A DNA stretch of 64,000 nt from NCBI RefSeq assembly GCF_014200605.1, contig NZ_JACHCE010000004.1, forward strand, positions 447,619 through 511,618, given 5' to 3'. Numbering within the stretch: the stretch's first letter is position 1; every line of letters starts with the position of its first letter. The notes beneath the pieces are model-generated. The model did not search any database. It worked only from the letters and a program-made list of their open reading frames with translations, and had not been told where the DNA came from. The position numbers were made by a program, and so were the translations under genes. This stretch comes from Pedobacter cryoconitis (lineage in GTDB: Bacteria; Bacteroidota; Bacteroidia; Sphingobacteriales; Sphingobacteriaceae). Of this stretch, positions 6,672 through 55,980 are shown piece after piece.

Positions 6672-7808
6672 TTACTGATTGACCACACCTCCATCTTGAG
6701 TATCAAACATGATAAATGGAGAAAAGAGCACTTCTGGATTACTAAAAACCCCACCTGGCTGTATCATTACTGAAAATTCAGTAAAAAGCAGTCCTACAGT
6801 TTTCCAATATACATTAGGATTATTAGATAAACGAGGTACAACAACATAGTTTATGAATTGAGCATTACCTCTTGCATTTGGATCTATCGCACTAATATTT
6901 CCCTGGAGTCCCTCAGAAATGGCTAGTACGCGATCAAAACGTTCAACATTGTATAACCCATCAAAATAATTCGGATTTAAGTTTATATATTTCACATCTC
7001 CAGAAAGATCTGCTGGAATATGATCATACCAAACGCTCATACCAGGAGTTTTTCCAGATACCGGCGTAAAATTAGCGCTCATACGAACATCACGATAGGT
7101 TCCAAAAATGTTTTTATGTTCAGCCATACCTTCTAATGACGAAAAACTCTGATAGCCAAAAACAGGACTATTAATATTATACAACTTCATTCTGAATAAC
7201 ACCCGGCCGCGGTCTTTATTTATAATATACCAGCCGCCAATGTTTGAAGTAAACGAATTTGGATTAGGAGCTCTCCCATTCAGCTCTGTACTGATCTTTG
7301 ATTCAATCATTTCCAGTGCCTTTTGATAAGTTGTTTCTTTATAAGTAGTGATACCTTTTTCAGAAGCATACAAGTAATCGTTTCCAACTTTTATAATTCC
7401 TTTTTTATTGGCAAGTGCCGATTCCCTGATTCCTGAAGAATTAATTTTATAACTATCATCTGTAAATAGTATTGCACCTTTATATTCTTGCTGGAGCGAT
7501 TTGAATCCACTAAAATAACTTTCTTTAGTACCTTTTTCCAGCACATCTAATTCATTATTGAATTTGTTGTATAATGTTGTTAAAGAACTAAAACTTAAAG
7601 ACTGCTCCCATTTTACTCTTTCAGAATCGGAGAGTGTCGAATTTAACTGATAGTATTTGAAGAAAGTTGCATAATCCTTGAAAGCTAAATAATCATTTTC
7701 TAATTTAACCTCCGGGAATTGTTCATGAGATGAGGGAACAGACTGTTTCTTACAAGAGAGGGTAACCAGCGCCAAGCCTAGCGCCAGAATTGTCAATTTC
7801 AATTTCAT
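6672..7808 (-). CDS. Lipoprotein of unknown function
   Basis: A 378-aa protein with a clear lipoprotein signal, LALVTLSCKKQ, with the lipidated Cys at residue 19. The mature part is hydrophilic. A helical N-terminal half (about 40-190, with LSDSERVKWEQSL and YKGAILFTDDSYKINSSG) precedes a beta-rich C-terminal half (about 190-378) with GGWYIINKDRGRVLFRMKLYN and a region resembling small Bacteroidota surface lipoproteins. I recognise no catalytic motif and no named family. It is flanked by its own terminator at 6608-6640 and by a 412-bp AT-rich gap upstream, so it is probably a single-gene unit anchored in the outer membrane. Confidence 0.8.
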   Translation of the reverse strand: MKLKLTILALGLALVTLSCKKQSVPSSHEQFPEVKLENDYLAFKDYATFFKYYQLNSTLSDSERVKWEQSLSFSSLTTLYNKFNNELDVLEKGTKESYFSGFKSLQQEYKGAILFTDDSYKINSSGIRESALANKKGIIKVGNDYLYASEKGITTYKETTYQKALEMIESKISTELNGRAPNPNSFTSNIGGWYIINKDRGRVLFRMKLYNINSPVFGYQSFSSLEGMAEHKNIFGTYRDVRMSANFTPVSGKTPGMSVWYDHIPADLSGDVKYINLNPNYFDGLYNVERFDRVLAISEGLQGNISAIDPNARGNAQFINYVVVPRLSNNPNVYWKTVGLLFTEFSVMIQPGGVFSNPEVLFSPFIMFDTQDGGVVNQ

Positions 7809-44452: not shown

Positions 44453-46285
44453 TTAATAATTTTTATGGAGCCTTAAATTATAGACATCGTCCCAGGTAAT
44501 ATATGGATAGAGGTTGTATTTCCTGGCCTGTACTTCAAATAGGGCTTTCAGCTCTTCCAGTTTTTCCGGATACTTTTTAGCCAGATTGATCCTTTCATTG
44601 AAATCTTCATTCAGGTTATATAATTCCCAAACGTTTTCGGTATAATTTTTAGCAAGGCCTTCTTTATTATTTGCTACATCGATCAGATCAGGATGATAAG
44701 GTAGTGCTGCTTTCCAGCCATTGCTATAAATCGATCTTGCGCCAAAGATATAATAATGCTGAATGGTATGTCTTGACGGAGCTTTTGCGTTATCAAAAGA
44801 GTAGACCAGCGAAGTTCCCTGGATAGAATCCTGTTTAATCCCCCTGATATATTCAGGAGCTTTAATTCCGGTATACTCCAAAGTAGTCGGTAAAAGATCG
44901 ATCACGTGACCATATTGTGTACGGATGCCTCCTTTATCTTTAATCCCTTTAGGATAATAAACAATTAAAGGGTTGCGTGTTCCTCCCTCAGAATCAGCAT
45001 CTTGCTTCCATTGCTTAAAGGGAGTGTTTAAGGCCTGTGCCCAACCTAAAGGATAATTGCCCTGAATTGCATCCGGAGTTCCTATTTCACTGATTACCTC
45101 TGTATTGTGTTTTAATGATTCCTGTAAACTCAGTTTTGCAGAAGCAGCTCTTTGCAAATCAATGGTACCATTTATGGTTCCTTCTTTACTTGCCCCATTA
45201 TCACCAATAATCACAAATACAACCGTATTCTCCAGTTGTCTGATATCTTTCAGGTGTTGAATCAACCGGCCAACCTCATGATCGGTATAGGTAAGATAAC
45301 CTGCGTAGACTTCCATAAAACGGGTATATAATTTCCGCTCCTGATCAGTTAGTTTATTCCATGCCCTGATATTTGGGTTACGTTCCGGCAGTACTGCATT
45401 GGCGGGGATAATGCCCAGTTTCTTTTGTCTGCTAAATACTTCTTCTCTGAATACATCCCAGCCTTTATCAAATTTCCCTTTATATAAATCACTCCACTGT
45501 GCAGCTACCTGATGAGGGGAATGTGTAGCGCCCGGTGCATAATATAAAAAGAATGGCTTACCTGAATTTGCTTTTTGCTGTCTGTCAATAAAACTGATTG
45601 CTTTATCTGTGATCTGCTCATTCAAATGTCTGCCATCGGGTTTAACATGTGCATTATCCTCTACTAAATCTGGTTTATACTGATCTGTTGCCGAACCTAA
45701 GAAACCAAAGAAATGGTCAAAGCCTTTTCCCAAAGGCCACCTGTCAAAAGGGCCTGCATCTGTAGCATCTTCATCGGGTGTTAAACCGTACTTTCCAACA
45801 GCAAAAGTATTGTAACCACTTTCACGGAGGATCTCTGCAATAGTTCCTTTATCGGAAGGGATTCTGCCATCATAGCCTGGAAAACCAGCAGACATAACAA
45901 TATGCGAAAAGCCCCCCTCATGTACTGAGTGACTATTCCGGCCTGTCAACAGTGCAGAACGTGTGGGTGCACAAATTGCCGTGGTATGGAAATTAGTATA
46001 CTTTAAACCTTCATTGGCCAGGGTATCAAAAGTGGGCGTACTGATCACACCGCCTAAAGTACTTGTGGCACCAAAACCGACATCATCGAGCAATACCCAA
46101 AGGACGTTCGGCGCCCCTTTTGGTGCAGTGACCGGTTTAGTCCAGGACTCTTTTGATTCTGCCAGGGTTTTGCCGATTACCCCTTTAAAAGGTTCTTGCT
46201 GCTGCGTAATATTTTGTGAATAGCCAGCAGTATAGCTTAACCCTGCCATGAACGTCATCAACGCAATAATATGTTTTCTATTCAT
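44453..46285 (-). CDS. Exported arylsulfatase (formylglycine type, AtsA-like)
   Basis: A 610-aa protein with an N-terminal signal peptide. The sulfatase signature is ICAPTRSALLTGRNSH, where Cys105 would be converted to formylglycine (C-x-P-T-R). Metal ligands appear as LLDDVGFG (Asp67, Asp68) and the late VFVIIGDNGASKEG (Asp-Asn). The order and the KPVTAPKGAPNVLW start resemble Pseudomonas AtsA. It removes sulfate from aryl or alkyl sulfate esters, probably in the periplasm. Its start overlaps the stop of the rhodanese-thioredoxin gene by 8 bp. It is the last gene of the sulfur-scavenging operon. Confidence 0.95.
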   Translation of the reverse strand: MNRKHIIALMTFMAGLSYTAGYSQNITQQQEPFKGVIGKTLAESKESWTKPVTAPKGAPNVLWVLLDDVGFGATSTLGGVISTPTFDTLANEGLKYTNFHTTAICAPTRSALLTGRNSHSVHEGGFSHIVMSAGFPGYDGRIPSDKGTIAEILRESGYNTFAVGKYGLTPDEDATDAGPFDRWPLGKGFDHFFGFLGSATDQYKPDLVEDNAHVKPDGRHLNEQITDKAISFIDRQQKANSGKPFFLYYAPGATHSPHQVAAQWSDLYKGKFDKGWDVFREEVFSRQKKLGIIPANAVLPERNPNIRAWNKLTDQERKLYTRFMEVYAGYLTYTDHEVGRLIQHLKDIRQLENTVVFVIIGDNGASKEGTINGTIDLQRAASAKLSLQESLKHNTEVISEIGTPDAIQGNYPLGWAQALNTPFKQWKQDADSEGGTRNPLIVYYPKGIKDKGGIRTQYGHVIDLLPTTLEYTGIKAPEYIRGIKQDSIQGTSLVYSFDNAKAPSRHTIQHYYIFGARSIYSNGWKAALPYHPDLIDVANNKEGLAKNYTENVWELYNLNEDFNERINLAKKYPEKLEELKALFEVQARKYNLYPYITWDDVYNLRLHKNY

Positions 46286-47114
46286 GTCCTTTTCTATTGA
46301 TCAATGTTTCTAATTCAGCAGCAGATGATAATCCGGCTTTTTTCCATATTTGTTTGCCACCCTGATAAAGTACAAGGGTTGGCAATTGATTAATTTTCAA
46401 ATCTTTTAATAATTCTGTATTGTCATAGGCTTCAATCCTGATAATTTTAGCTTTCAAATCCTGTTTCTTTTCTAAGGAATCCAGTACAGGGATCAACTGT
46501 TTACAAGCGCCGCAATATCTTGAACCAAAATCAACAAGCACCAAATCTGAAGATCCCGTTAAAGTATTAAACTGGGCGGAAGACAAGGCTAACCCTTTTT
46601 TAGTGTTGCTGATAATCGGATAACCCGATCCGATCCAATTGGCAATGCCACCCGGCAATACATTGACTTCTTTAAATCCTTTAGCCCTCAATTCTTTTGC
46701 AACGGTAACACTGCGTCCGTTTGCTATAGAATAAATAAAAACAGGTTTTTCTTTAGCCAGTTCTGCAATCTGTTTTGCATAGCCTGCAGATGCAGGGTCA
46801 ATATTGATCGCCCCTTTGATATGGTTTTGGATAAACTCTTCGTGCGTGCGGGCATCGATGAGCTGTGCACTTGCTTTTTTAACACTGAATGCAAATTCTG
46901 CAAGCGTTAAAAAGGATTCTTTAGCAGCAGTCTGCTCCTTTGGCCGGGAAGAAGCTGGCCCATTTGTCTTTGATAGTGCCGTATGAGCTCCGGAAGAAGC
47001 TAACCCATTAGCTTTTGCCAGTGCCTGGTGGTTTTCTCCGGGACTTTGCTGTGCCTTAACCGTTCCGGCTGCCGAAACGAGTAACATTAAAATAAAGTGT
47101 TTAATCTGTTTCAT
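46278..47114 (-). CDS. Exported rhodanese-like/thioredoxin fusion, rhodanese Cys replaced by Ser
   Basis: From ATG 47114 the protein has 278 aa; a longer frame to 47162 overlaps the neighbouring gene. Signal peptide, then an imperfect 2-fold repeat (ALAKANGLASS / ALSKTNGPASS, about 31-56), a rhodanese domain (68-168, LIDARTHEEFIQNHIKGAIN), and a thioredoxin domain (180-278) with CGAC at 201-204 and cis-Pro245 in LPTLVLY. The rhodanese catalytic loop reads YSIANGRS: Ser129 sits where Cys is needed, so sulfurtransferase activity is unlikely. The thioredoxin end looks active and may keep Cys in the sulfatase or a partner reduced. It sits between the two sulfatase genes, overlapping one by 8 bp. 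Confidence 0.9.
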   Translation of the reverse strand: MKQIKHFILMLLVSAAGTVKAQQSPGENHQALAKANGLASSGAHTALSKTNGPASSRPKEQTAAKESFLTLAEFAFSVKKASAQLIDARTHEEFIQNHIKGAINIDPASAGYAKQIAELAKEKPVFIYSIANGRSVTVAKELRAKGFKEVNVLPGGIANWIGSGYPIISNTKKGLALSSAQFNTLTGSSDLVLVDFGSRYCGACKQLIPVLDSLEKKQDLKAKIIRIEAYDNTELLKDLKINQLPTLVLYQGGKQIWKKAGLSSAAELETLINRKGHE

Positions 47115-47116
47115 AA

Positions 47117-48685
47117 TTATTTGATTTTGTTCCAGTCCCGGACACCAACTTTTGCAGCCCATGCCAGGTATTTTTTTTCCATTTGTTTAACTTGTTCAGG
47201 ATATTTCAGCGCCAGATCATGGGTTTCAGTCCGGTCTGTTTTCAGATTATATAATTCCCAGGGGGCATTCAGTTCAGCAACCAGCTTCCAATCCTTTTCC
47301 CTGATTGCCCTGCTCCCTTCATGTTCCCAGTAAAGTGCAGCTCTGCTATTGTTTGCCTTACCTTTAAAAACGGGCACCAGACTATACCCTTCTAGCTTTT
47401 TCAACTGGTTACCCTTAAATTTCTCGGGATATTTCAAACCCGAGACCTCCAGTAAAGTGGGTAATAAGTCAATAAAATGGGCTGGTCGGTTACTTCTTGA
47501 TCCCGCCTTAATTACCCCTGGATAATAAGCGATAAATGGAGTTGAAATCCCTCCTTCATGCGTGTTTTTCTTAAATAGCCTGAAAGGGGTATTACTTGCA
47601 TTTCCCCATGGGGCTTCATAGCTGTCTATAGAATTTACACTGCCGGGAACACCATTCTTCTGTGTCACGTAATCCCATTTTTTCACTTCATCGGCACTTC
47701 CGCCATTATCGGAGAGAAAAACAACCAGCGTATTTTTATCTCTTTTAATCTGCTTGATTTTATTCAGGATCTGGCCAATACCAGCATCCATCCGGTCAAT
47801 CATAGCGGCATAAATTGCCATCCGGGTATCCCATAGTTCTTTCTCCTGCTCAGATAAAGTATCCCATGCCTTTACACTTTCAAAACGCGGGGATAAAGCC
47901 CACTCCTTTTTGATTATCCCCAGGGCCAGAAGCTTTTTATACCGCTGTTGCCTGAGGGCATCCCAGCCATTTAAATATTTGCCTTTATATCTTGCAATAT
48001 CCTCAGGCAAAGCCTGAATAGGCCAGTGCGGTGCATTATAAGCTACATAGAGTAAAAATGGATTTGGCCGGTCTTTAACTTCATCCAGAGATTTTAAAGC
48101 AAAATTGGTAATTGCCTGTGTCAGGTATAAAGAGGTATCCTGCCTTTCCACCTCCTTGCCATTCAATAAGAAATTCACCGTCCTGCCGTCATTATATAAG
48201 GGTTTCGAATTAAAATAACTGCTTCCATTGTTTTGTAGTGTGAAAGATTTTTCAAAGCCCCTGTTTACAGCCCAGGCAGAAGGCACCAGTCCAATATGCC
48301 ATTTACCGGAAACAATTGTGCTGTACCCCCCGGCTTTTAACAACTCACCAATTGTAGCACAATTGGAATTCAGGAATCCCTGATAAGCCTCAGAACCTTT
48401 ATTCTGCACCATATCACCAACCCCGGCCTGATGCGGATAAAGCCCGGTCAGCAAGGCAGCCCGCGAAGGACAGCATCTGCCTGCATTATAAAACTGATTC
48501 ATCAAAAGCCCTTGTTTCGCCAGTTTATCCAGAACTGGTGTATGAATTTCAGAGCCAAATGCACCGAGATCAGAAAACCCTAAATCATCGGCCAGGATCA
48601 CAACAATATTTGGCCTGGACTTTTGAGCAGAAACATTCAAAGCCATCATGCAAAATATGATAAACAGGCTTAAGTGATTTTTCAT
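47117..48685 (-). CDS. Exported sulfatase (formylglycine type)
   Basis: From ATG 48685 the protein has 522 aa; an upstream ATG at 48709 adds eight residues. Signal peptide ends at LNVSAQKS. The sulfatase signature is GRCCPSRAALLTGLYPHQ, with C71-C72-P73-S74-R75, so Cys71 is the residue to be oxidised to formylglycine. LADDLGFSD and VFLSDNGGSADE supply metal ligands. FGly enzymes of this kind hydrolyse sulfate esters and sulfated sugars. It lies 28 bp downstream of the rhodanese gene and 2 bp upstream of the rhodanese-thioredoxin gene, in the sulfur-scavenging operon. Paralogous to the downstream sulfatase but only distantly. Confidence 0.95.
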   Translation of the reverse strand: MKNHLSLFIIFCMMALNVSAQKSRPNIVVILADDLGFSDLGAFGSEIHTPVLDKLAKQGLLMNQFYNAGRCCPSRAALLTGLYPHQAGVGDMVQNKGSEAYQGFLNSNCATIGELLKAGGYSTIVSGKWHIGLVPSAWAVNRGFEKSFTLQNNGSSYFNSKPLYNDGRTVNFLLNGKEVERQDTSLYLTQAITNFALKSLDEVKDRPNPFLLYVAYNAPHWPIQALPEDIARYKGKYLNGWDALRQQRYKKLLALGIIKKEWALSPRFESVKAWDTLSEQEKELWDTRMAIYAAMIDRMDAGIGQILNKIKQIKRDKNTLVVFLSDNGGSADEVKKWDYVTQKNGVPGSVNSIDSYEAPWGNASNTPFRLFKKNTHEGGISTPFIAYYPGVIKAGSRSNRPAHFIDLLPTLLEVSGLKYPEKFKGNQLKKLEGYSLVPVFKGKANNSRAALYWEHEGSRAIREKDWKLVAELNAPWELYNLKTDRTETHDLALKYPEQVKQMEKKYLAWAAKVGVRDWNKIK

Positions 48686-48712
48686 AGTTATTTTGCTAGT
48701 CTTTAACATAAC

Positions 48713-49138
48713 CTAATGCCCATTTTCCAAAGGAAAACCCGATTTAGCCAGGCTATCCAAACCACCAATATTATAGCCTCTTTTATAGCCGAAAGTTTGC
48801 AAGGTGTCTGTCGCCTTTCCGCTCCTGCTCCCAGATCTGCAATACAGATAAACACGCTTATTTTTATTCAGCTTACTGATTTCAGTCCCGAAGTCAGCAG
48901 ATTTAATATCCATGTTTTTTGCATATTTCAAATGACTGCCTTTGTACTCCTCAGCGGTACGGACATCTACCAGGTAAGCATCTCCGCTTGCGATCTGAGC
49001 CAAAAGTTTTTGACTGAGCTGTGTGGTGACTACAATTTTATTAGGGCTTTTTTGTACATATCCCTGATGGCCTGTTTGTGCTGCAGCCCCCAGCACGGCC
49101 AGTAATAACAAGAAAAGCACAATTCTGAATAATTTCAT
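48713..49138 (-). CDS. Exported single-domain rhodanese
   Basis: A 141-aa protein with a signal peptide (LFRIVLFLLLLAVLGAAAQ) and one rhodanese domain: AYLVDVRTAEEYKGSHLKYAKN and the active-site loop YLYCRSGSRSG with Cys100. Rhodaneses move sulfane sulfur from thiosulfate or persulfides to acceptors. In this locus it may process reduced sulfur compounds outside the inner membrane. It follows susD after 43 bp and precedes the 522-aa sulfatase, suggesting common control with the sulfatases. Unlike the neighbouring fusion protein, its catalytic Cys is intact. Confidence 0.93.
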   Translation of the reverse strand: MKLFRIVLFLLLLAVLGAAAQTGHQGYVQKSPNKIVVTTQLSQKLLAQIASGDAYLVDVRTAEEYKGSHLKYAKNMDIKSADFGTEISKLNKNKRVYLYCRSGSRSGKATDTLQTFGYKRGYNIGGLDSLAKSGFPLENGH

Positions 49139-49181
49139 TTCAATAATTTTAGGTGGTCAATAATTAGTTATAGCTGTTCTT

Positions 49182-50738
49182 TTACCAGCCAGGGTTTTGT
49201 ATCAATTTGGCATTCAGATCAATTTCCTGCTGAGGGATCGGAAACAACAGGTGTTTAGGAACAGAAACATTAGTTTTACCTGCTTTTTTAAGTGCATCTT
49301 CCAGAATAATCTTTCCGGTTGCGTCCTTTTCTCTGATCAGATCAAACCAGCGCTGATTTTCCCAGACCAGTTCAAGCCTGCGGTCCAGGTAAAGTGAATC
49401 CCTGAATTGATTTTGACTTAAAGCATTGAAAGGTGTCAGGCCAGCACGTTCACGCACGCGGTTATAAGCGGCATAAGCTTTTGCTGAAGGCCCGCTAAGC
49501 TCGTTCTCCGCTTCTGCCAGGATTAGTAGTACCTCAGAAAATCTGATTACAGGTACATTAGCCGCCGACTCACTTAAATTAGCAACCTGTCCCGGGTCCC
49601 AGTATTTGTTCAGATAAGGAATAGAATCTCCGGGAATAGATTTATCTACTAAATCTCCATACCATTTACCATCAGAGCCTAAGAAACGGGTTACAAAAGT
49701 TCCGTTCTTTTTTCTGCGGTCATTTGCACTGTATAACTTATAAATACTAAAGTTTTTGTCCGTTCCCTGGGTATAAAACCTAACCTGATCAGCATAAGAA
49801 CCAACCATACCCGGTACCCCGGAACGTGCGCCCCTTGGAGCCTGGTTATTGCCTTGTCCCAAAGAGTTCGATTTAAACTGGGCAGACAGAATATGTTCCT
49901 TTCCATTTTTAAAAGCAGGAAGAAATACCTGCGAATAATCGGTAAAAAGATCATATTTATAAGGGCTTGAACCTGCACTATAAGGATAAGGGCCTGTTAC
50001 TTCTTCGGCCTTTGAAACCGCAAGGGCCCATTTCCCCTCGGTCAGATAGACTTTGGCAAGCAGCGATTTTGCCGCGCCTGCTGTCGCCCTGCCAAGATCT
50101 GCACCGCTATAAGAATCCGGCAGGGCCGATGCCGCATCAGACAAATCCTTTTCAATCTGTGTATATACTCCGGCAACAGGGGTTTGTTCAATCGCAAAAT
50201 CAACGATCGTCACGCCTTCCTGATCATGTAAAATCAAAGGCACGGCGCCAAATAAACGCACGATATTGAAATAGTATAGCGCCCTGAGCAGTTTGGCTTC
50301 CCCGACCAGTCTTTTTTTAAGATCTTCTGTTAAAGCCGCATCTGTAATTCCCGGCACCCGGTCAATCGCAATATTTGCCTTCTTAATTCCTGCATAGTGC
50401 TGCTGCCATAACTGTAAAACCCTAAGCCCGGTAGAAGAATGGTTCAGCACAGCCTGAGAGCGCACATCGGCATTGGTCGCACCCGGCCCCGGATCAATAT
50501 CATCGGACATAAAGTCCATACCTGTAGCAAATAGCGTATTGTAAGGGGTTTGAACGGAAGTCCCTCCGGAATTTAAAAGAAAATAAACAGCATTGACCGC
50601 ATTAATCGCATCTGCTTTAGTTTTATAATAATCCTTTGCAGGAATAAAAGAATCAGGATTTTCTTTCAGTTTGGCACAGGAGCTGATTACGCCAAGGGTC
50701 AATGCCAGCAGAAAATATTTATAAGTCGTTTTCATCAT
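49182..50738 (-). CDS. SusD/RagB-family lipoprotein of the sulfur locus
   Basis: A 518-aa protein with lipoprotein signal (LTLGVISSCAKLK). SusD landmarks: YYKTKADAINAVNAVYFLL, LVGEAKLLRALYYFNIVRLFGAVPLI, AAKSLLAKVYLTEGKWALAV, VIRFSEVLLILAEAEN, RRLELVWENQRWFDLIR and the C-terminal PIPQQEIDLNAKLIQNPGW. It binds substrate on the cell surface for the SusC channel encoded 9 bp upstream. Context with two sulfatases suggests a sulfated organic compound as ligand. The binding site cannot be read from sequence alone. Confidence 0.95.
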   Translation of the reverse strand: MMKTTYKYFLLALTLGVISSCAKLKENPDSFIPAKDYYKTKADAINAVNAVYFLLNSGGTSVQTPYNTLFATGMDFMSDDIDPGPGATNADVRSQAVLNHSSTGLRVLQLWQQHYAGIKKANIAIDRVPGITDAALTEDLKKRLVGEAKLLRALYYFNIVRLFGAVPLILHDQEGVTIVDFAIEQTPVAGVYTQIEKDLSDAASALPDSYSGADLGRATAGAAKSLLAKVYLTEGKWALAVSKAEEVTGPYPYSAGSSPYKYDLFTDYSQVFLPAFKNGKEHILSAQFKSNSLGQGNNQAPRGARSGVPGMVGSYADQVRFYTQGTDKNFSIYKLYSANDRRKKNGTFVTRFLGSDGKWYGDLVDKSIPGDSIPYLNKYWDPGQVANLSESAANVPVIRFSEVLLILAEAENELSGPSAKAYAAYNRVRERAGLTPFNALSQNQFRDSLYLDRRLELVWENQRWFDLIREKDATGKIILEDALKKAGKTNVSVPKHLLFPIPQQEIDLNAKLIQNPGW

Positions 50739-50747
50739 TATATCAGA

Positions 50748-53700
50748 TTAAAAGGAAAGTGTAGCACCACCCATGATGGTTTTACTATTCGGGTAAACAC
50801 CATTATCCACGCCCGAATTGATCGCAGACTGCCCATTATAATTTGCCTCAGGATCATAACCTGTATAATTGGTCCAGGTCCATAAATTCTGTGCAGAGAC
50901 ATAAAACCTTATCGCTTTTATACCCGCTTTATTCAATAATTTATGGGGTAAAGTATAACCGAACGTTACATTTTTGAGGCGCAGGTACGAAGCATCTTCA
51001 ATAAACCTGTCCGAAATGGTGACCGCCGGGTCGGTATAAGCGCTATGCACATCTGTATTGGTATGGGTAGCGGTATAACGGTCCAATAAATTGCGTGAAG
51101 CATTGGTATAGCCCGTCCCCAATTCTAAAGTACCCCTGTTCTGATTGTAGAGTTTATTACCATAAGAAGTCTGAAAAAACACTGATAAATCAAAATTTCT
51201 GAAACTAAAATTGTTTGTAATCCCTCCTGTAAATAAGGGCTGGTTAGAGATGATATACCTGTCCCCTGCCTGGGTAATCTTTCCGTCTCCATTTTTGTCC
51301 ACATATTGCTGGCCGCCCGGTGCTTTATTTCCAGAAGGCGTCAACGCTAAGGCCGCAGGGGTTCCGGCAGGGATCAAACCATCAGTTTTGTAAACAATAA
51401 AAGACCCGATCGGGTAACCTACTGCTGCAATTGAAGGCAGAGAGCTATCCGGGATGAGCTGGCTGACATTGTCCAGGCTCAGCACCTTATTCCTGTTTAA
51501 CGCAAAGATGATACTGGAAGACCATTTAAAATCGCCAACCAGATTTTTGGTATTGATCCCCAGTTCAAATCCTTTATTCTGCACTGCTCCGATATTCTGG
51601 TAAATCTGGCTTTGCAGTGTGTTGAAATCCAGCAAACCACTTGTAGCAGGTACGGTGATATTGTATAACAGATCGGTGGTTTTTTTATAGTAAACATCTG
51701 CAACAACGTTAATCCGGTTATTGAATAAAGCGAGGTCAATTCCCAAATTGTACTGCGCCGTTTTTTCCCAGGTAAGATTAGGGTTGGCATTGGTTCCCGG
51801 AGCATAGCCCGATGCATTGGTCCCGTTAAAATTATACCTGTAAAAAACCTCTCTGGAATAAGACTGATAAGGAGGGATTTCCTGATTACCGGTCAGACCT
51901 GCACTAAAGCGTACTTTTAAATTGGTGATTGCCGGGCTGTTCTTTAAAAACCCCTCTTCACTTACATTCCAGGCTATAGCTGCCGAAGGAAATGTCCCCC
52001 ACTGATGACCTGGTGAAAAACGCGAAGAACCATCAGCTCTCAGAGTCAGGGTCAGGAGATATTTATTGCTGTAACCGTAATTTGCCCTGGCCAGAAATGA
52101 TCTTAAAGCAGTCTGATAAGAAGTGGAAGATGGCGTTTGAGAGATAATCCCAGAAGAAAGATCATTGTAAGCCGTTTCATCTGTAGCAAAACCAGCGGCA
52201 CCGGCAATAGCACCTTTAGTGACCGCAGACTCCTGGGTATATCCAACCAATACATTGATATTATGGTTATTGTTTAGCTGCCTGGTATAGTTCAGTGTGT
52301 TCTCGTTCAACCAGCGCGTGGTAAACAAGGTACCCACCTGAGCAAGCCCTGCTGTACCTGTACCTTCATAAACCGTAGATGGCAGATAGCGGTTTTGCTT
52401 ATTATCTACAATGAGTACCCCCGCCGATACTTTGGCTTGTAAACCCTCAATGATCTTGTAATCTGCTGATGCATTTCCCAATACCAGGTTAGTGCGGGTT
52501 TCGTTCAGCTGGTTATACAGGGTATTGATCGGATTTCCATAAGTACCCTCAAAAGGACTTTTCAGATAGAAAGAACCATCCGGATTGTAAATCGGAATAG
52601 CAGGGGTCATCAGTAATAAATTGGGTACAACGGATTGCGGTGCAACCTGTGCTTTTGAACTGCTTCCGGCAATATAAGACACGATTTTTAAACGGTCATT
52701 ATATTGATGTTCAACATTTAAACGGCCCGAATAACGTGTAAAATCAGTATTCTGTAATACACCGTCCTGCTTGAAATAATTACCCGAAAGCGCAAATTTG
52801 GTTTTCTCTGTACCTGTCAGAATGGATAAGTTATGGCTCTGAACAGCAGCATTCCGAAAAGCCGCCTCCTGCCAGTCTGTTCCTACCCCTAAAGCATCGA
52901 GCTGTGCCTGCGTATAATAAGGAGATTTCCCGGCATTGACCAGGGCGTCATTTCTCAGTTGCCCCCATTCGGTGGCATTCAGTAAAGGAATGGTTTTCAC
53001 CACTTCCTGCGTACCATAATAACTGTCAAAATTGACCGAAGATTTCCCGGCAGTCCCTTTTTTAGTATTGATAATGATGACACCGTTTGCTCCCCTGGAA
53101 CCATAAATAGCTGTAGAAGAAGCGTCTTTTAAAACGTCAATAGATTCTATATCCCCAGGATTTATTGCAGAGAGCAAATTGATTTTAGGCCCGCTGGTTA
53201 CACCTGCATCTGCCAGTTTTTCATCATTATAGAAAGGAAAACCGTCAATGACATAAAGTGGCTGTGAACCCGCGGTAAGTGATGCAGTACCTCTCACCTG
53301 TACACTCACGCCACCACCCGGCTGACCGGTCGATTGCGTCACCTGAACGCCCGGGATTGATCCCTGAAGTAATCTTTCGGGAGAACTTACGGGTTGTCCT
53401 TTGACCTCTTCCAGTTTGATAGAAGCGACAGATCCCGTAATATCTTTACGCCGCTGTGTTCCATAACCCACTACCACTACATCATTCAGATTGTTGGTGG
53501 TTTCTTTGAGTAAGATCTCAACGGGGCTGCCGTCTACGCTTAATTCCAGTTTTTCGTAACCGATAAAACTGACTACCAGTGTATAGGGAAACTTCTGTCC
53601 TGTTTTGAAGTTGAATTTTCCTTTATCATCTGTGGCAACTTTATGCGTAGTCCCTTTGATCTGTACTAAAACGCCCGGTAAAGCTTCTTTTGTTTTTTCA

Positions 53701-53921
53701 TCCAACACCCTGCCTGCAAGCGTTGAATTGATGAGCGGCTGATTTTCCTGCGCGGCAGTAGTTAAGGAAAAAGTAAACAAGAAAAACAGTAATATACTGA
53801 AAGACAGTGCAAAGGTATAAGTTTCTACTAGTTTTTGTAAGTTAAGAACAGCAGTATTTTTTGCTGCTGTATAGATTAAAGCCGGGACATAACTCTCCCC
53901 GGCTTTAGCAAAATTTTGCAT
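50748..53921 (-). CDS. SusC/RagA TonB-linked transporter of the sulfur locus
   Basis: From ATG 53921 the protein has 1057 aa; an upstream TTG at 53945 is in frame but lies next to the conserved repeat. A long N-terminal extension (about 35 residues) precedes a signal segment (FALSFSILLFFLFTFSLTTAAQ). Then a carboxypeptidase-regulatory-like domain (AGRVLDEKTKEALPGVLVQIKG), the plug (SLTAGSQPLYVIDGFPFYND, DASSTAIYGSRGANGVIIINTKKG) and a barrel ending MGGATLSF. No STN domain, so it is not a FecR-type transducer; control is more likely by the leader upstream. It pairs with the SusD protein and probably imports the product or substrate of the sulfatases. Confidence 0.95.
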   Translation of the reverse strand: MQNFAKAGESYVPALIYTAAKNTAVLNLQKLVETYTFALSFSILLFFLFTFSLTTAAQENQPLINSTLAGRVLDEKTKEALPGVLVQIKGTTHKVATDDKGKFNFKTGQKFPYTLVVSFIGYEKLELSVDGSPVEILLKETTNNLNDVVVVGYGTQRRKDITGSVASIKLEEVKGQPVSSPERLLQGSIPGVQVTQSTGQPGGGVSVQVRGTASLTAGSQPLYVIDGFPFYNDEKLADAGVTSGPKINLLSAINPGDIESIDVLKDASSTAIYGSRGANGVIIINTKKGTAGKSSVNFDSYYGTQEVVKTIPLLNATEWGQLRNDALVNAGKSPYYTQAQLDALGVGTDWQEAAFRNAAVQSHNLSILTGTEKTKFALSGNYFKQDGVLQNTDFTRYSGRLNVEHQYNDRLKIVSYIAGSSSKAQVAPQSVVPNLLLMTPAIPIYNPDGSFYLKSPFEGTYGNPINTLYNQLNETRTNLVLGNASADYKIIEGLQAKVSAGVLIVDNKQNRYLPSTVYEGTGTAGLAQVGTLFTTRWLNENTLNYTRQLNNNHNINVLVGYTQESAVTKGAIAGAAGFATDETAYNDLSSGIISQTPSSTSYQTALRSFLARANYGYSNKYLLTLTLRADGSSRFSPGHQWGTFPSAAIAWNVSEEGFLKNSPAITNLKVRFSAGLTGNQEIPPYQSYSREVFYRYNFNGTNASGYAPGTNANPNLTWEKTAQYNLGIDLALFNNRINVVADVYYKKTTDLLYNITVPATSGLLDFNTLQSQIYQNIGAVQNKGFELGINTKNLVGDFKWSSSIIFALNRNKVLSLDNVSQLIPDSSLPSIAAVGYPIGSFIVYKTDGLIPAGTPAALALTPSGNKAPGGQQYVDKNGDGKITQAGDRYIISNQPLFTGGITNNFSFRNFDLSVFFQTSYGNKLYNQNRGTLELGTGYTNASRNLLDRYTATHTNTDVHSAYTDPAVTISDRFIEDASYLRLKNVTFGYTLPHKLLNKAGIKAIRFYVSAQNLWTWTNYTGYDPEANYNGQSAINSGVDNGVYPNSKTIMGGATLSF

Positions 53922-53932
53922 ATTTGATCGTT

Positions 53933-53979
53933 TTAAAAATGACAAGACATAAGCAGGTCCAACGCCAATTGATTCCTGA
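53933..53979 (-). repeat. Conserved leader element, copy A (upstream of susC)
   Basis: Minus-strand blocks CAATTGGCGTTGG and CTTGTCATTT, separated by 12 nt, match copies at 55582-55626 and 55935-55980. It lies 12 bp before the susC ATG. The shared bases, with a variable middle, suggest a protein- or RNA-binding element rather than a gene. Confidence 0.7.
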
Positions 53980-54034
53980 ACTTATTTGAATTAATCTGTA
54001 GAAATAGCTAAATAATATTTTTGTGCGGTATAAA

Positions 54035-55099
54035 TTAGAAATTGGTTCCTGCCTGAAGGGCTACTTCTTTCAAAATCAACAGTTCTTCCTCTTTCAGAGT
54101 CCGCTGTTCCTGCTCTTTTAAATTTTGCTTTTCTTCTTCTTCCAGAACCTGCTGTTCCTGTTCTGCTAAAATCTGCTGTTCCACTTTCTTTAAAATCCGC
54201 TCTTCTTGTTCCTCATCTTCGTGATCAATTGAAATATCGGGCTTAACCATCGGGCCATCGGCAGCCAGCTCACTTCCTGCAACATTAGATTTGAAAACAG
54301 GCCATAATAACTGTGCATACCAGGGATCTTCCTGGTAATGTGAAATGCCATAAACAGCAGGATATTGTCTGGAAATATGAGCGGTCCCGAAAATGATATC
54401 CCACAAAAAGAACATGTTTCCGAAATTGCCCTTATAATAACCTACCCCATCATCTGTGGTCGCTGCATGATGGGCATGGTGTGTTGCTGGTGTAGAAATT
54501 AAGCGTTCTAAAACCCAGGCAACCGGATGCAGTATTTTGTATTGATAAAAAGGCTTATCCCAGGGGATACTGGAATGCGCTAAGGTCGTGATCGTACTTT
54601 TTATAGCCCCTACTACGATTCTAGGTGCTCCCAGGCCAAGATAGACCAGAATAGTGGTAACGTAAGTCTGAGAAAAAAACAAGGTATAAATCGCATTTTG
54701 TCTGCTCGCCATAGCCATTCCCATATAAGGTGCAGAATGGTGCGTCCGGTGAAAACGCCATAACCATGGAATTTCATGGTGCAACCGATGATACCAATAT
54801 TGGGTCAGATCATCTGCAATGGCGATAATCAGTACGCCCCAGCCAAAAGACACCCAGCTAAACTGATTGCTCAAAGCAGGAATGACAGCGGGTAAGAACT
54901 TAAGTCCGAAAAATGCAATAGCAGGTCTGATTACCAGTTTAGGTAAGACAAAACAAGCGATATCAACCATTTTTTCGTTCTTGTTCCAGCGTTTTTTATA
55001 GAGGCCGAAAGAAAACTCCAGTATCCCTAATACGAGTACCAGTACACTTAGTCCGTAACCATTCAGGTTATCGATGACTTCTTGAATAATTTTAATCAT
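54035..55099 (-). CDS. Sterol desaturase/fatty acid hydroxylase-family membrane enzyme with Glu/Gln-rich tail
   Basis: A 354-aa protein with membrane helices in the first 170 residues and the di-iron histidine boxes YHRLHH (103-108), FHRTHHS (117-122) and THHAHHAA (207-213). These are diagnostic of the fatty acid hydroxylase superfamily (PF04116), which adds hydroxyl groups or double bonds to lipids using O2. Residues ~293-346 are a highly charged coiled coil of imperfect repeats (LKEQEQRTLKEEELLILKE), unusual for the family. Two ~50-aa membrane proteins are encoded just upstream. Bacteroidota make sulfonolipids, but linking this enzyme to them is speculation. Confidence 0.92.
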   Translation of the reverse strand: MIKIIQEVIDNLNGYGLSVLVLVLGILEFSFGLYKKRWNKNEKMVDIACFVLPKLVIRPAIAFFGLKFLPAVIPALSNQFSWVSFGWGVLIIAIADDLTQYWYHRLHHEIPWLWRFHRTHHSAPYMGMAMASRQNAIYTLFFSQTYVTTILVYLGLGAPRIVVGAIKSTITTLAHSSIPWDKPFYQYKILHPVAWVLERLISTPATHHAHHAATTDDGVGYYKGNFGNMFFLWDIIFGTAHISRQYPAVYGISHYQEDPWYAQLLWPVFKSNVAGSELAADGPMVKPDISIDHEDEEQEERILKKVEQQILAEQEQQVLEEEEKQNLKEQEQRTLKEEELLILKEVALQAGTNF

Positions 55100-55122
55100 T
55101 GTTGATGGTTTTAGGTGGTTGA

Positions 55123-55284
55123 TTATTTACTAATATGGCTGGTTTTAACAGCCTTTTTTAACCAGGGCCGCTGTCCTGTAAAATAAAAGGTGAAAAACAT
55201 CAGTAAAATGGGCAGCGCATAGATAAACAGGCTAAGGAATACATTCTTAATGATCCTTTGCTTTACAGCTTCTTCGATTTTCAT
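55123..55284 (-). CDS. 53-aa single-pass membrane protein
   Basis: Reads MKIEEAVKQRIIKNVFLSLF and continues as a hydrophobic helix (about residues 14-35, FLSLFIYALPILLMFFTFYF) with a Lys-rich cytoplasmic or periplasmic tail (QRPWLKKAVKTSH). It starts 5 bp past the stop of the 52-aa membrane protein and ends 23 bp before the desaturase start, so the three are co-transcribed. Its composition is that of a real membrane microprotein, perhaps a partner of the hydroxylase. It is too short to be found by a simple ORF cut-off. Confidence 0.7.
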   Translation of the reverse strand: MKIEEAVKQRIIKNVFLSLFIYALPILLMFFTFYFTGQRPWLKKAVKTSHISK

Positions 55285-55289
55285 ATTAT

Positions 55290-55448
55290 TTACTTAAGAT
55301 GAACGGTGGTAGATGGAGACAAAGGATTGTCTGATAAAACTGTTTGGATAAGCCATAGCCCTCCTAATAGAATGACGAGTGGAACAGTAGCTACTACGAT
55401 TCCGACTACGATCTTCTTTCCGATTAATTGTAAGTCTGAAATAGTCAT
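55290..55448 (-). CDS. 52-aa single-pass membrane protein
   Basis: Reads MTISDLQLIGKKIVVGIVVA and continues as one long hydrophobic helix (about residues 13-36, VVGIVVATVPLVILLGGLWLIQ) followed by a polar tail (NPLSPSTTVHLK). It is the first gene after the conserved repeat copy B and precedes the 53-aa membrane protein by 5 bp. The larger minus-strand frame 55294-55569 that overlaps it has no protein-like pattern and I reject it. Function unknown; a subunit or regulator of the nearby di-iron enzyme is possible. Confidence 0.7.
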   Translation of the reverse strand: MTISDLQLIGKKIVVGIVVATVPLVILLGGLWLIQTVLSDNPLSPSTTVHLK

Positions 55449-55581
55449 ATGGTGAATTTTTAGGTGCGAAACAACTCATCTCTCTTTCTGTCCGATACGT
55501 AGAACCGCAGGATAAAGAGGGTATAAAAAGGGCATAGTAAACCCAAAAGAGTCCCGAAAGAGATTGCATGATGATTTATTC

Positions 55582-55626
55582 TTTAAATGACAAGATTGAA
55601 CAGTACCAACGCCAATTGAACTCCTG
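55582..55626 (-). repeat. Conserved leader element, copy B (downstream of the poly-Cys leader)
   Basis: Minus-strand CAATTGGCGTTGG, then 11 nt, then CTTGTCATTTAAA: the same blocks as copies A and C. It lies between the leader stem-loop and the first microprotein gene, inside the predicted transcript. Confidence 0.75.
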
Positions 55627-55642
55627 TTCTTTTATTAAATAG

Positions 55643-55665
55643 GCTGATTCTTATAGAGAATCAGC
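55643..55665 (-). promoter_or_regulatory. Stem-loop after the poly-Cys leader, candidate attenuator
   Basis: A perfect 9-bp stem (gctgattct / agaatcagc) with a 5-nt loop begins 30 bp past the leader's stop codon on the minus strand. Ribosome stalling at the Cys codons would lie next to it, which fits an attenuation or translation-coupling design. No strong T tract follows. Confidence 0.5.
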
Positions 55666-55694
55666 GTGCTGTCCATCGGTAGAGGGAGAATTAG

Positions 55695-55790
55695 CTAACA
55701 ACAACAACAGTATCCTGCATCATGAGAAAACATTAAGTTTTCATTGGCAGAATTCATTTTAAAACCGGTATGTAATTTTAATTTTAACAT
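55695..55790 (-). CDS. Poly-cysteine leader peptide (31 aa) ahead of the sulfur-scavenging operon
   Basis: The frame reads MLKLKLHTGFKMNSANENLM and continues FSHDAGYCCCC, so four consecutive TGT codons stand immediately before the TAG stop. An internal ATG would give 20 aa with the same end. Such an arrangement marks a leader peptide that senses cysteine supply through charged tRNA-Cys. Downstream on the same strand are a stem-loop, the conserved repeat copy B, two membrane microproteins, a di-iron enzyme, SusC/SusD and two sulfatases. A TATATTTG promoter box with a TTG box 20 bp upstream lies 32 bp before the ATG. Cys-rich leaders upstream of sulfur genes are known from Actinobacteria; here the role is inferred. 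Confidence 0.75.
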   Translation of the reverse strand: MLKLKLHTGFKMNSANENLMFSHDAGYCCCC

Positions 55791-55821
55791 TGGTTATGTG
55801 CTGTTTTGTAGAGCGTTAGTA

Positions 55822-55852
55822 CAAATATATAATATGAAAATCATAAATACAA
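55822..55852 (-). promoter_or_regulatory. Bacteroidota promoter for the poly-Cys leader operon
   Basis: On the minus strand TTG (55850-55852), a 20-bp spacer and TATATTTG (55822-55829) fit the phylum consensus TTTG-N19-21-TAnnTTTG. Transcription would begin about 25 nt ahead of the leader ATG at 55790. Confidence 0.65.
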
Positions 55853-55934
55853 TTAAATCTATAAATTTAGTAGATTATATTCTAAATATTGCGAATTAGT
55901 ATTCCTGATGCTATTTATTTATCTTTACCAAAGG

Positions 55935-55980
55935 TTTAAATGACAAGATTGAATCGGGTCCAACGCCAAATTTCACCTGG
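55935..55980 (-). repeat. Conserved leader element, copy C (upstream of the leader promoter)
   Basis: Minus-strand TTTGGCGTTGGACC and TTCAATCTTGTCATTTAAA match copies A and B. It lies about 85 bp upstream of the leader promoter, so this copy is outside the predicted leader transcript, favouring a DNA-level or ancestral role. Confidence 0.7.

Follow-up and report, generated by a model that had tools for sequence, protein, structure and literature searches.

A probable cysteine-sensing leader peptide with a terminal cysteine run heads sulfate-ester scavenging operons in Pedobacter and other Bacteroidota

Canestrari et al. (2020) reportedly described polycysteine leaderless short open reading frames (ORFs) in mycobacteria. 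Polycysteine short ORFs of mycobacteria (PMC9094748, PMC13236596) and candidate cys leaders of Actinobacteria (PMC1262725) are, in the accessible parts of these papers (to which all our statements on papers cited by PMC number refer), short frames that have Cys codons close to their stop and precede sulfur genes. Tandem Cys codons are also found in uORFC-8-2, upstream of cysS in Rhodobacterales, for which attenuation is proposed (PMC8632094), and leader-peptide attenuation has been proposed before the amino-acid biosynthesis operons of Flavobacterium psychrophilum (PMC9723704). Here we analyse a stretch of 64,000 nucleotides (nt) from Pedobacter cryoconitis (assembly GCF_014200605.1, contig NZ_JACHCE010000004.1, positions 447,619 to 511,618), hereafter the window, in which a 31-codon frame ending in four Cys codons precedes a sulfatase, SusC/SusD and di-iron enzyme operon. 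On the sequence evidence this frame is probably a regulatory leader peptide, that is an upstream ORF, which would sense charged tRNA-Cys for a sulfate-ester scavenging operon.

The frame resembles the mycobacterial and actinobacterial leaders in all three of the respects just given, but belongs to another phylum, is probably not leaderless, and stands before an outer-membrane scavenging operon rather than genes of cysteine synthesis. It shares tandem Cys codons in an upstream ORF with uORFC-8-2, whose motif, unlike ours, ends in a U-run terminator and precedes cysS (PMC8632094). The F. psychrophilum leaders are likewise from Bacteroidota, but they precede biosynthesis operons and the accessible part of that report contains no cysteine leader (PMC9723704). 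The poly-Cys leader is a kind of device already known, and its Bacteroidota form is widespread and, as far as the literature searched shows, unreported; a preliminary description of this DNA knew of no case in the phylum, and none appeared among the literature matches listed, most subscription papers lying outside the scope of that search.

The leader and the elements directly upstream of it are as follows.

Positions 55695 to 55790, minus strand: poly-Cys leader ORF MLKLKLHTGFKMNSANENLMFSHDAGYCCCC-stop, 31 codons plus TAG, ending in CCCC, the last four codons being TGT.
Positions 55822 to 55829, minus strand: -7 box TATATTTG of the leader promoter, from the sequence.
Positions 55850 to 55852, minus strand: TTG, candidate -33 element, from inspection of the sequence.
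Positions 55856 to 55876, minus strand: palindrome AATCTA-N9-TAGATT, a candidate operator from the sequence, adjoining the promoter.

The preliminary description had read from the letters a frame ending in four TGT codons and a stop, a Bacteroidota-type promoter ahead of it and, downstream on the same strand, genes for two microproteins, a hydroxylase, SusC/SusD, a rhodanese, sulfatases and a thioredoxin fusion; all of this is confirmed, the promoter by the box and the TTG given above and the genes by their ORFs, domain matches and CxPxR motifs. The -7 box of Bacteroidota is TAnnTTTG, which occurs at -75 to -8 of 49 of 81 leaders, against 5 of 232 control windows placed 300-700 nt farther upstream in the same loci. 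A leaderless start is improbable, since the leader ATG lies 39 nt past the start of the -7 box, which predicts a 5' region of about 25-30 nt. By eye, CTATAnAATTAGTAG-like sites resembling the window palindrome (55876-55856) stand ahead of many other leaders, so a DNA-binding regulator may act too.

Used as a protein query against 41 genomes, the leader returned one clear counterpart, which lies in genome G013 of the same genus, has 77% identity and is longer by one residue in the same frame; the remaining matches were weak. The hydroxylase is present in 19 of 145 genomes of the genus, counting the genome of the window itself (the own genome). A Cys-run frame lies directly upstream of the microprotein-hydroxylase genes in 10 of these 19 (one reads RCCCR), while seven have a SusC-first operon with another frame, for example MMPNLFIFSMQVYPSCCC or MHHLQFVSMRMCLSCCC, about 230 nt upstream of SusC. 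G107 carries MSHLLIFSMRMYPPCCC ahead of one copy, and none was found ahead of the other. A leader is present in 18 of the 19 genomes, and in the nineteenth (G138) the contig stops within SusC. The Cys frame remains upstream of the first operon gene, be it the microprotein-hydroxylase set or SusC, when the gene order changes. In G009 (C1:432671-433530) the hydroxylase matches as two pieces in different frames, so that the gene looks frameshifted; the poly-Cys leader is intact there.

A wider scan of named genome records yielded 299 relatives of the hydroxylase, and the best 80 loci were taken further. They come from Pedobacter, Mucilaginibacter, Olivibacter, Larkinella, Spirosoma, Dyadobacter, Chryseolinea, Chitinophaga and others, derive from fewer than 80 genomes and overlap the other samples (G001, G159, G126, G011 and G138 are L119, L120, L121, L128 and L126, respectively, and G257 is L162). 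The operon strand carries an intergenic frame of at most 80 residues ending in CCC, with no more than two residues after it, in 62 of the 80 loci, and the opposite strand in one. The locus of Pedobacter steynii DSM 19110 (L108) is among those with a poly-Cys leader. When all residues were tested in frames of at most 70 residues with an ATG start, terminal triplets on the sense strand were of Cys in 63 of 80 loci, Leu in 10 and Pro in 4, against Leu in 16, Lys in 6 and Cys in 1 on the antisense strand. A frame arising by chance from a TG-rich repeat must be considered, as TGYTGYTGYTRR matches twice in the window against 0.30 expected and 2 of 100 shuffles also reach two, so the window by itself is weak evidence. 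The chance explanation is settled, however, by the strand comparison with all residues as control, and leaders that use both TGT and TGC (65 of 77) speak against it as well; we regard it as refuted, its residual probability being negligible.

A wider rule that also admits CC ends, again with an ATG start, finds 82 frames in 70 of the 80 loci. Five doubtful frames (L109 at 3085, L177 at 2931, L179 at 13621, L181 at 10947 and L175 at 2895) were then dropped, here and in the pairing, terminator, promoter-box, codon, gene-context and base-composition counts, leaving 77 frames in 69 loci. No leader was found under this rule in L123, L126, L129, L132 and L138, where the sequence stops near or inside the operon, in L140 (Candidatus Sulfotelmatobacter), L161, L165 and L170, or, after the drop, in L175; L145 has a CCCCMCC frame lacking an ATG start. 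The preliminary description had staked its reading on conservation of the Cys run, which is kept in 18 of the 19 same-genus genomes and in most of the 80 loci, and its claim that a poly-Cys leader heads the operon is supported by the frame, the gene order and this comparison.

A sample of 395 genomes from across the phylum contains the hydroxylase in 15, the own genome counted, and the upstream region was taken for 13 of these, leaving out the own genome and G315 (a weak match). The strict rule finds a Cys leader on the sense strand in 9 of the 13 loci and on the antisense strand in none; one of the nine is G257. The remaining 12 loci all belong to one genus of another family, so these operons are close relatives, and 8 of the 12 satisfy the strict rule. 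Every one of them has an 8-10-codon frame just upstream of SusC (MKTMQTCCCK, MKKMHNSCCK, MKKLMCCR and similar), with CCC in seven and only CC in five; a looser rule gives 12/12 on the sense strand and 0/12 on the antisense strand, with 0.11 expected from shuffles.

The leaders carry a mean of 4.6 Cys in their last 12 codons (TGT 256, TGC 97), and between clades the leaders share hardly anything except Met and the Cys run. Changes at third positions are not consistently in excess in six groups of related leaders. As far as these sequences go, conservation is confined to a start codon, an open frame, the Cys run and a stop, the pattern expected of a regulatory leader whose product does not matter. 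The frame could instead encode the precursor of a ribosomally synthesised and post-translationally modified peptide, or a Cys-rich microprotein with a function of its own, which the iron enzyme encoded nearby would modify, and a terminal Cys run close to a di-iron membrane enzyme would suit such a role. It is nevertheless a very improbable one. Neither a conserved recognition sequence nor codon bias is seen, and where the hydroxylase gene has moved the frame has not gone with it but still lies ahead of whichever gene comes first; frames of this sort also stand ahead of other genes. A scan of 20 of the 22 aligned leaders gave no NCBIfam match, and no Pfam model matches the window leader.

Such frames ahead of other genes were sought in the own genome, where TGYTGYTGYTRR has 131 matches (24 for the reversed pattern). 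Among the 100 of these listed we examined 71 places besides the window leader and left aside 28 that end in TGG or lie in one repeat cluster. Of the first 30 Cys-stop places inspected, 27 fall inside long open frames, and Cys-stop patterns alone were rejected as a genome-wide tag; TGYTGYTGYTGYTRA, with matches in 143 of 145 genomes, is likewise uninformative. The places examined yielded three more multi-Cys leaders, which precede a SusC/SusD-like pair, another TonB-dependent receptor and a PhyH-family protein, respectively. At one of these places (L260) the leader and SusC/SusD-like pair are followed by ribonuclease-family (PF00545) and barstar-family (PF01337) proteins. Multi-Cys frames in L224, L230, L241 and L259 were not counted, being repeats or having no large gene closely downstream. 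Among the 80 loci, L113 and L114 have a second leader ahead of a 189-residue protein, which in L113 belongs to the carbonic-anhydrase family; around this L113 leader and gene (6862-7431), a cysteine-desulfurase-like frame, recognised by eye, lies nearby on the opposite strand.

Cysteine sensing is suggested by pathway logic, since charged tRNA-Cys is the natural signal for a terminal Cys run, and sulfate-ester scavenging would be a natural target of a Cys leader. When cysteine is short, ribosomes would stall on the Cys codons at the leader end and the operon would be expressed; when it is plentiful, the leader would be completed, the ribosome would depart and expression would be attenuated. 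The most likely attenuation step would be the loading of Rho on C-rich, G-poor RNA directly past the leader stop, a site that would lie under a ribosome stalled at the leader's last codons. The RNA past the window leader contains the following features.

Positions 55635 to 55694, minus strand: first 60 nt past the leader stop, C 0.28 and G 0.13, candidate Rho-loading region.
Positions 55643 to 55665, minus strand: 9-bp stem-loop GCTGATTCT-CTATA-AGAATCAGC, from the sequence.
Positions 55598 to 55629, minus strand: hairpin GAACAG..CTGTTC, with TTGGCGTTG in its loop.

Across 71 leaders the excess of C over G in the 60 nt past the stop is +0.081, and +0.145 in the first 20 nt, whereas it is +0.003 for 1342 other short intergenic frames, +0.006 for 282 long genes and -0.006 for 1572 antisense frames. 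Such C-rich, G-poor RNA fits Rho loading, and a rho gene is present in the own genome; taken by itself, Rho as the attenuation step is a tentative proposal to which we give somewhat less than an even chance. The arrangement would be similar to that of E. coli tnaC, where a ribosome stalled at the leader end shields a Rho site; tnaC stalls on free tryptophan, whereas the trigger here would be a lack of charged tRNA-Cys. The window leader also resembles the mycobacterial ones in this respect, as PMC1262725 gives no conserved terminator hairpin for mycobacteria and names Rho as one possibility.

In classical attenuation the same leader would be followed, ahead of the first gene, by an intrinsic terminator that responds to the position of the ribosome, and the preliminary description had pointed to the 9-bp stem-loop in this connection. 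The stem-loop is present (55665-55643), but a role as a classical attenuator is not supported: a search of the 280 nt past the window leader revealed no terminator on the sense strand. Terminator-like hairpins on the sense strand do occur within at most 280 nt of the leader stop in 12 of 78 intervals, including AGGCTAACTGCAGAAGTGTAGCC-TTTTTT in a Pedobacter SusC-first locus, but the excess over shuffles (5.9 or 7.6) is small and strong ones (-12 kcal/mol or lower) occur in 2 of 78. With 66 of the 78 intervals lacking one, a general sense terminator was rejected, and this mechanism appears decidedly unlikely.

Under translational attenuation, RNA that includes the Cys codons would keep the first gene's start masked, and a ribosome stalled on the leader would end the masking. 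Translation attenuation has been described for mycobacterial cysteine genes (PMC13236596). In the second family, all 12 loci (L279-L290) have a hairpin GCCATTTCTGCGGCAACAGAAATGGC past the leader stop with an A run before it, and its loop sequence GCAACA is, by eye, complementary to UGUUGC of the Cys codons. Tests of simple duplexes, however, showed the Cys codons pairing no more than shuffles do, whether with the 60 nt that follow (mean z -0.2 over 77 leaders) or with the start region (mean z +0.49 over 29 leaders, the leader-body control giving +0.32), and we judge this mechanism unlikely.

Between leader and SusC, 37 of 78 intervals contain an antisense-strand terminator (9.1 in shuffles), which is a strong one in 26 (0.1 in shuffles), and in many SusC-first loci (e.g. 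L119, L133, L146 and L151) the terminator sits just upstream of SusC. The terminator hairpin is followed by a second hairpin with the conserved loop GTAACGCCAATCAC or a variant, or elsewhere its reverse complement with TTGGCG. When a two-stem structure drawn from one of the sequences was applied to 22 loci, 92.6% of cells paired and six pairs had changed on both sides (0 to 3 in slid controls, 2.5 in shuffles); further pair types in the two stems were not above shuffles in these loci, and RNAalifold on the SusC 5' region returned the first hairpin only. In addition, 24 of 24 SusC-first loci have, 27-35 nt ahead of the antisense-terminator hairpin, an ATG with a stop no more than four codons on (1.0 expected from shuffles); these mini-ORFs of 2-4 codons encode MK*, MAL*, MKL* and the like (alignment A4). 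TTGGCG loops are familiar from plasmid antisense RNAs; the string UUGGCG was not found in the papers listed.

The conserved antisense-strand terminator suggests an added cis-antisense RNA, and the antisense element is, judging from these patterns, a probable second control layer. DonS-like cis-antisense RNAs opposite susC occur in Bacteroides polysaccharide utilisation loci (PMC7366714); the RNA proposed here would likewise lie opposite susC, but it is deduced from the antisense-strand terminator and would be accompanied by a poly-Cys leader. One could go further and suppose that a cysteine-gated cis-antisense RNA represses the operon, ribosomes on the leader or mini-ORF interfering with it. 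The terminators, the compensatory stem changes, the TTGGCG-type loops and the mini-ORF in 24/24 loci would all accord with this, but no antisense terminator was found in the window, either in the 280 nt past the leader or, by eye, upstream of SusC, despite three TTGGCG copies, and a link to the leader is not required; such gating seems a doubtful prospect. The broader version, with two-input RNA control across Bacteroidota in which the poly-Cys leader reads cysteine and a cis-antisense RNA with a TTGGCG-type loop lies opposite susC, is similarly speculative and one we would not favour at present; ribosomes on the leader or on the 2-4-codon mini-ORF would then decide whether the antisense RNA is made or pairs.

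In the window, the TTGGCGTTG element occurs in the hairpin loop listed above (55615-55607, minus strand) and in two further copies.

Positions 53960 to 53968, minus strand: TTGGCGTTG copy directly upstream of SusC.
Positions 55961 to 55969, minus strand: TTGGCGTTG copy upstream of the leader promoter.

The latter is preceded by a long inverted repeat at about 56050-55990. In the own genome AATTGGCGTTGNNNC matches exactly at two places, both at the window locus, and with one mismatch it is no commoner there than its control. An Rfam scan returned a single tRNA among the loci; in the window it gave three hits, all below threshold and chance-like.

Several points weigh against a cysteine-sensing leader that works through Rho. 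The loci are related and come partly from the same genomes, so the counts are not independent, and no Cys-run leader was found for L104, L170 and the two Spirosoma loci L161 and L165. The three other own-genome leaders are not beside recognisable sulfur genes. Since third positions show no excess of changes, codon bias offers no proof that the leader body is translated. The simple duplex tests revealed no alternative structure, with neither of the two pairings exceeding shuffles. The evidence for a Rho step is base composition, which suggests such a step and does not prove it, and for the mycobacterial cysteine genes the control described is translation attenuation, not Rho (PMC13236596).

The genes behind the window leader, with the domain match or other basis of each assignment, are listed below in their order of transcription.

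Positions 55290 to 55448, minus strand: microprotein 1, 52 residues, an ORF with a tblastn match in 68 of the 80 loci.
Positions 55123 to 55284, minus strand: microprotein 2, 53 residues, an ORF with a tblastn match in 77 of the 80 loci.
Positions 54035 to 55099, minus strand: FA_hydroxylase-family membrane di-iron enzyme (PF04116, 1.6e-23).
Positions 50748 to 53921, minus strand: SusC/RagA TonB-linked receptor (TIGR04056, 7.2e-264).
Positions 49182 to 50738, minus strand: SusD (PF07980, 2e-34).
Positions 48713 to 49138, minus strand: rhodanese-domain protein (PF00581, 1.3e-14).
Positions 47117 to 48709, minus strand: sulfatase with motif CCPSR (PF00884, 4.8e-60).
Positions 46278 to 47162, minus strand: rhodanese-thioredoxin fusion (PF00581 and PF00085).
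Positions 44453 to 46285, minus strand: sulfatase with motif CAPTR (PF00884, 4.8e-59).

Both sulfatases have the CxPxR motif. SusC probably starts at ATG 53921 rather than TTG 53945, and an inverted repeat GCCGGG..CCCGGC lies inside coding DNA at this start (53921-53880, minus strand). Searched anywhere in the 80 loci by tblastn, SusD was matched in 75 and SusC in 66; each of the two sulfatases, which cross-match as queries, was matched in 61, the rhodanese-thioredoxin fusion in 21 and the rhodanese in 18. Plasmid records (31) contain relatives of the hydroxylase only below 60% identity. In Dyadobacter loci L172, L174, L176, L179-L181, L184, L185 and L187 the hydroxylase apparently carries microprotein 2 as an N-terminal fusion, as it does, by eye, in the second family (L265-L276), which suggests that the microproteins are subunits of the hydroxylase-family enzyme.

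Amino-acid sensing by leader peptides is classically linked with biosynthesis operons, and the SusCD systems of Bacteroidota are mostly known as glycan-responsive. Here, the leader device appears to control operons for outer-membrane uptake and sulfatases in several Bacteroidota lineages. A promoter-proximal frame ending in Cys-Cys-Cys is a sequence tag by which sulfur-scavenging operons whose substrate is unknown may be recognised, and the locus is one where attenuation based on Rho or antisense RNA can be tested directly. If the two-input scheme were true, antisense repression in these operons would be gated by cysteine.

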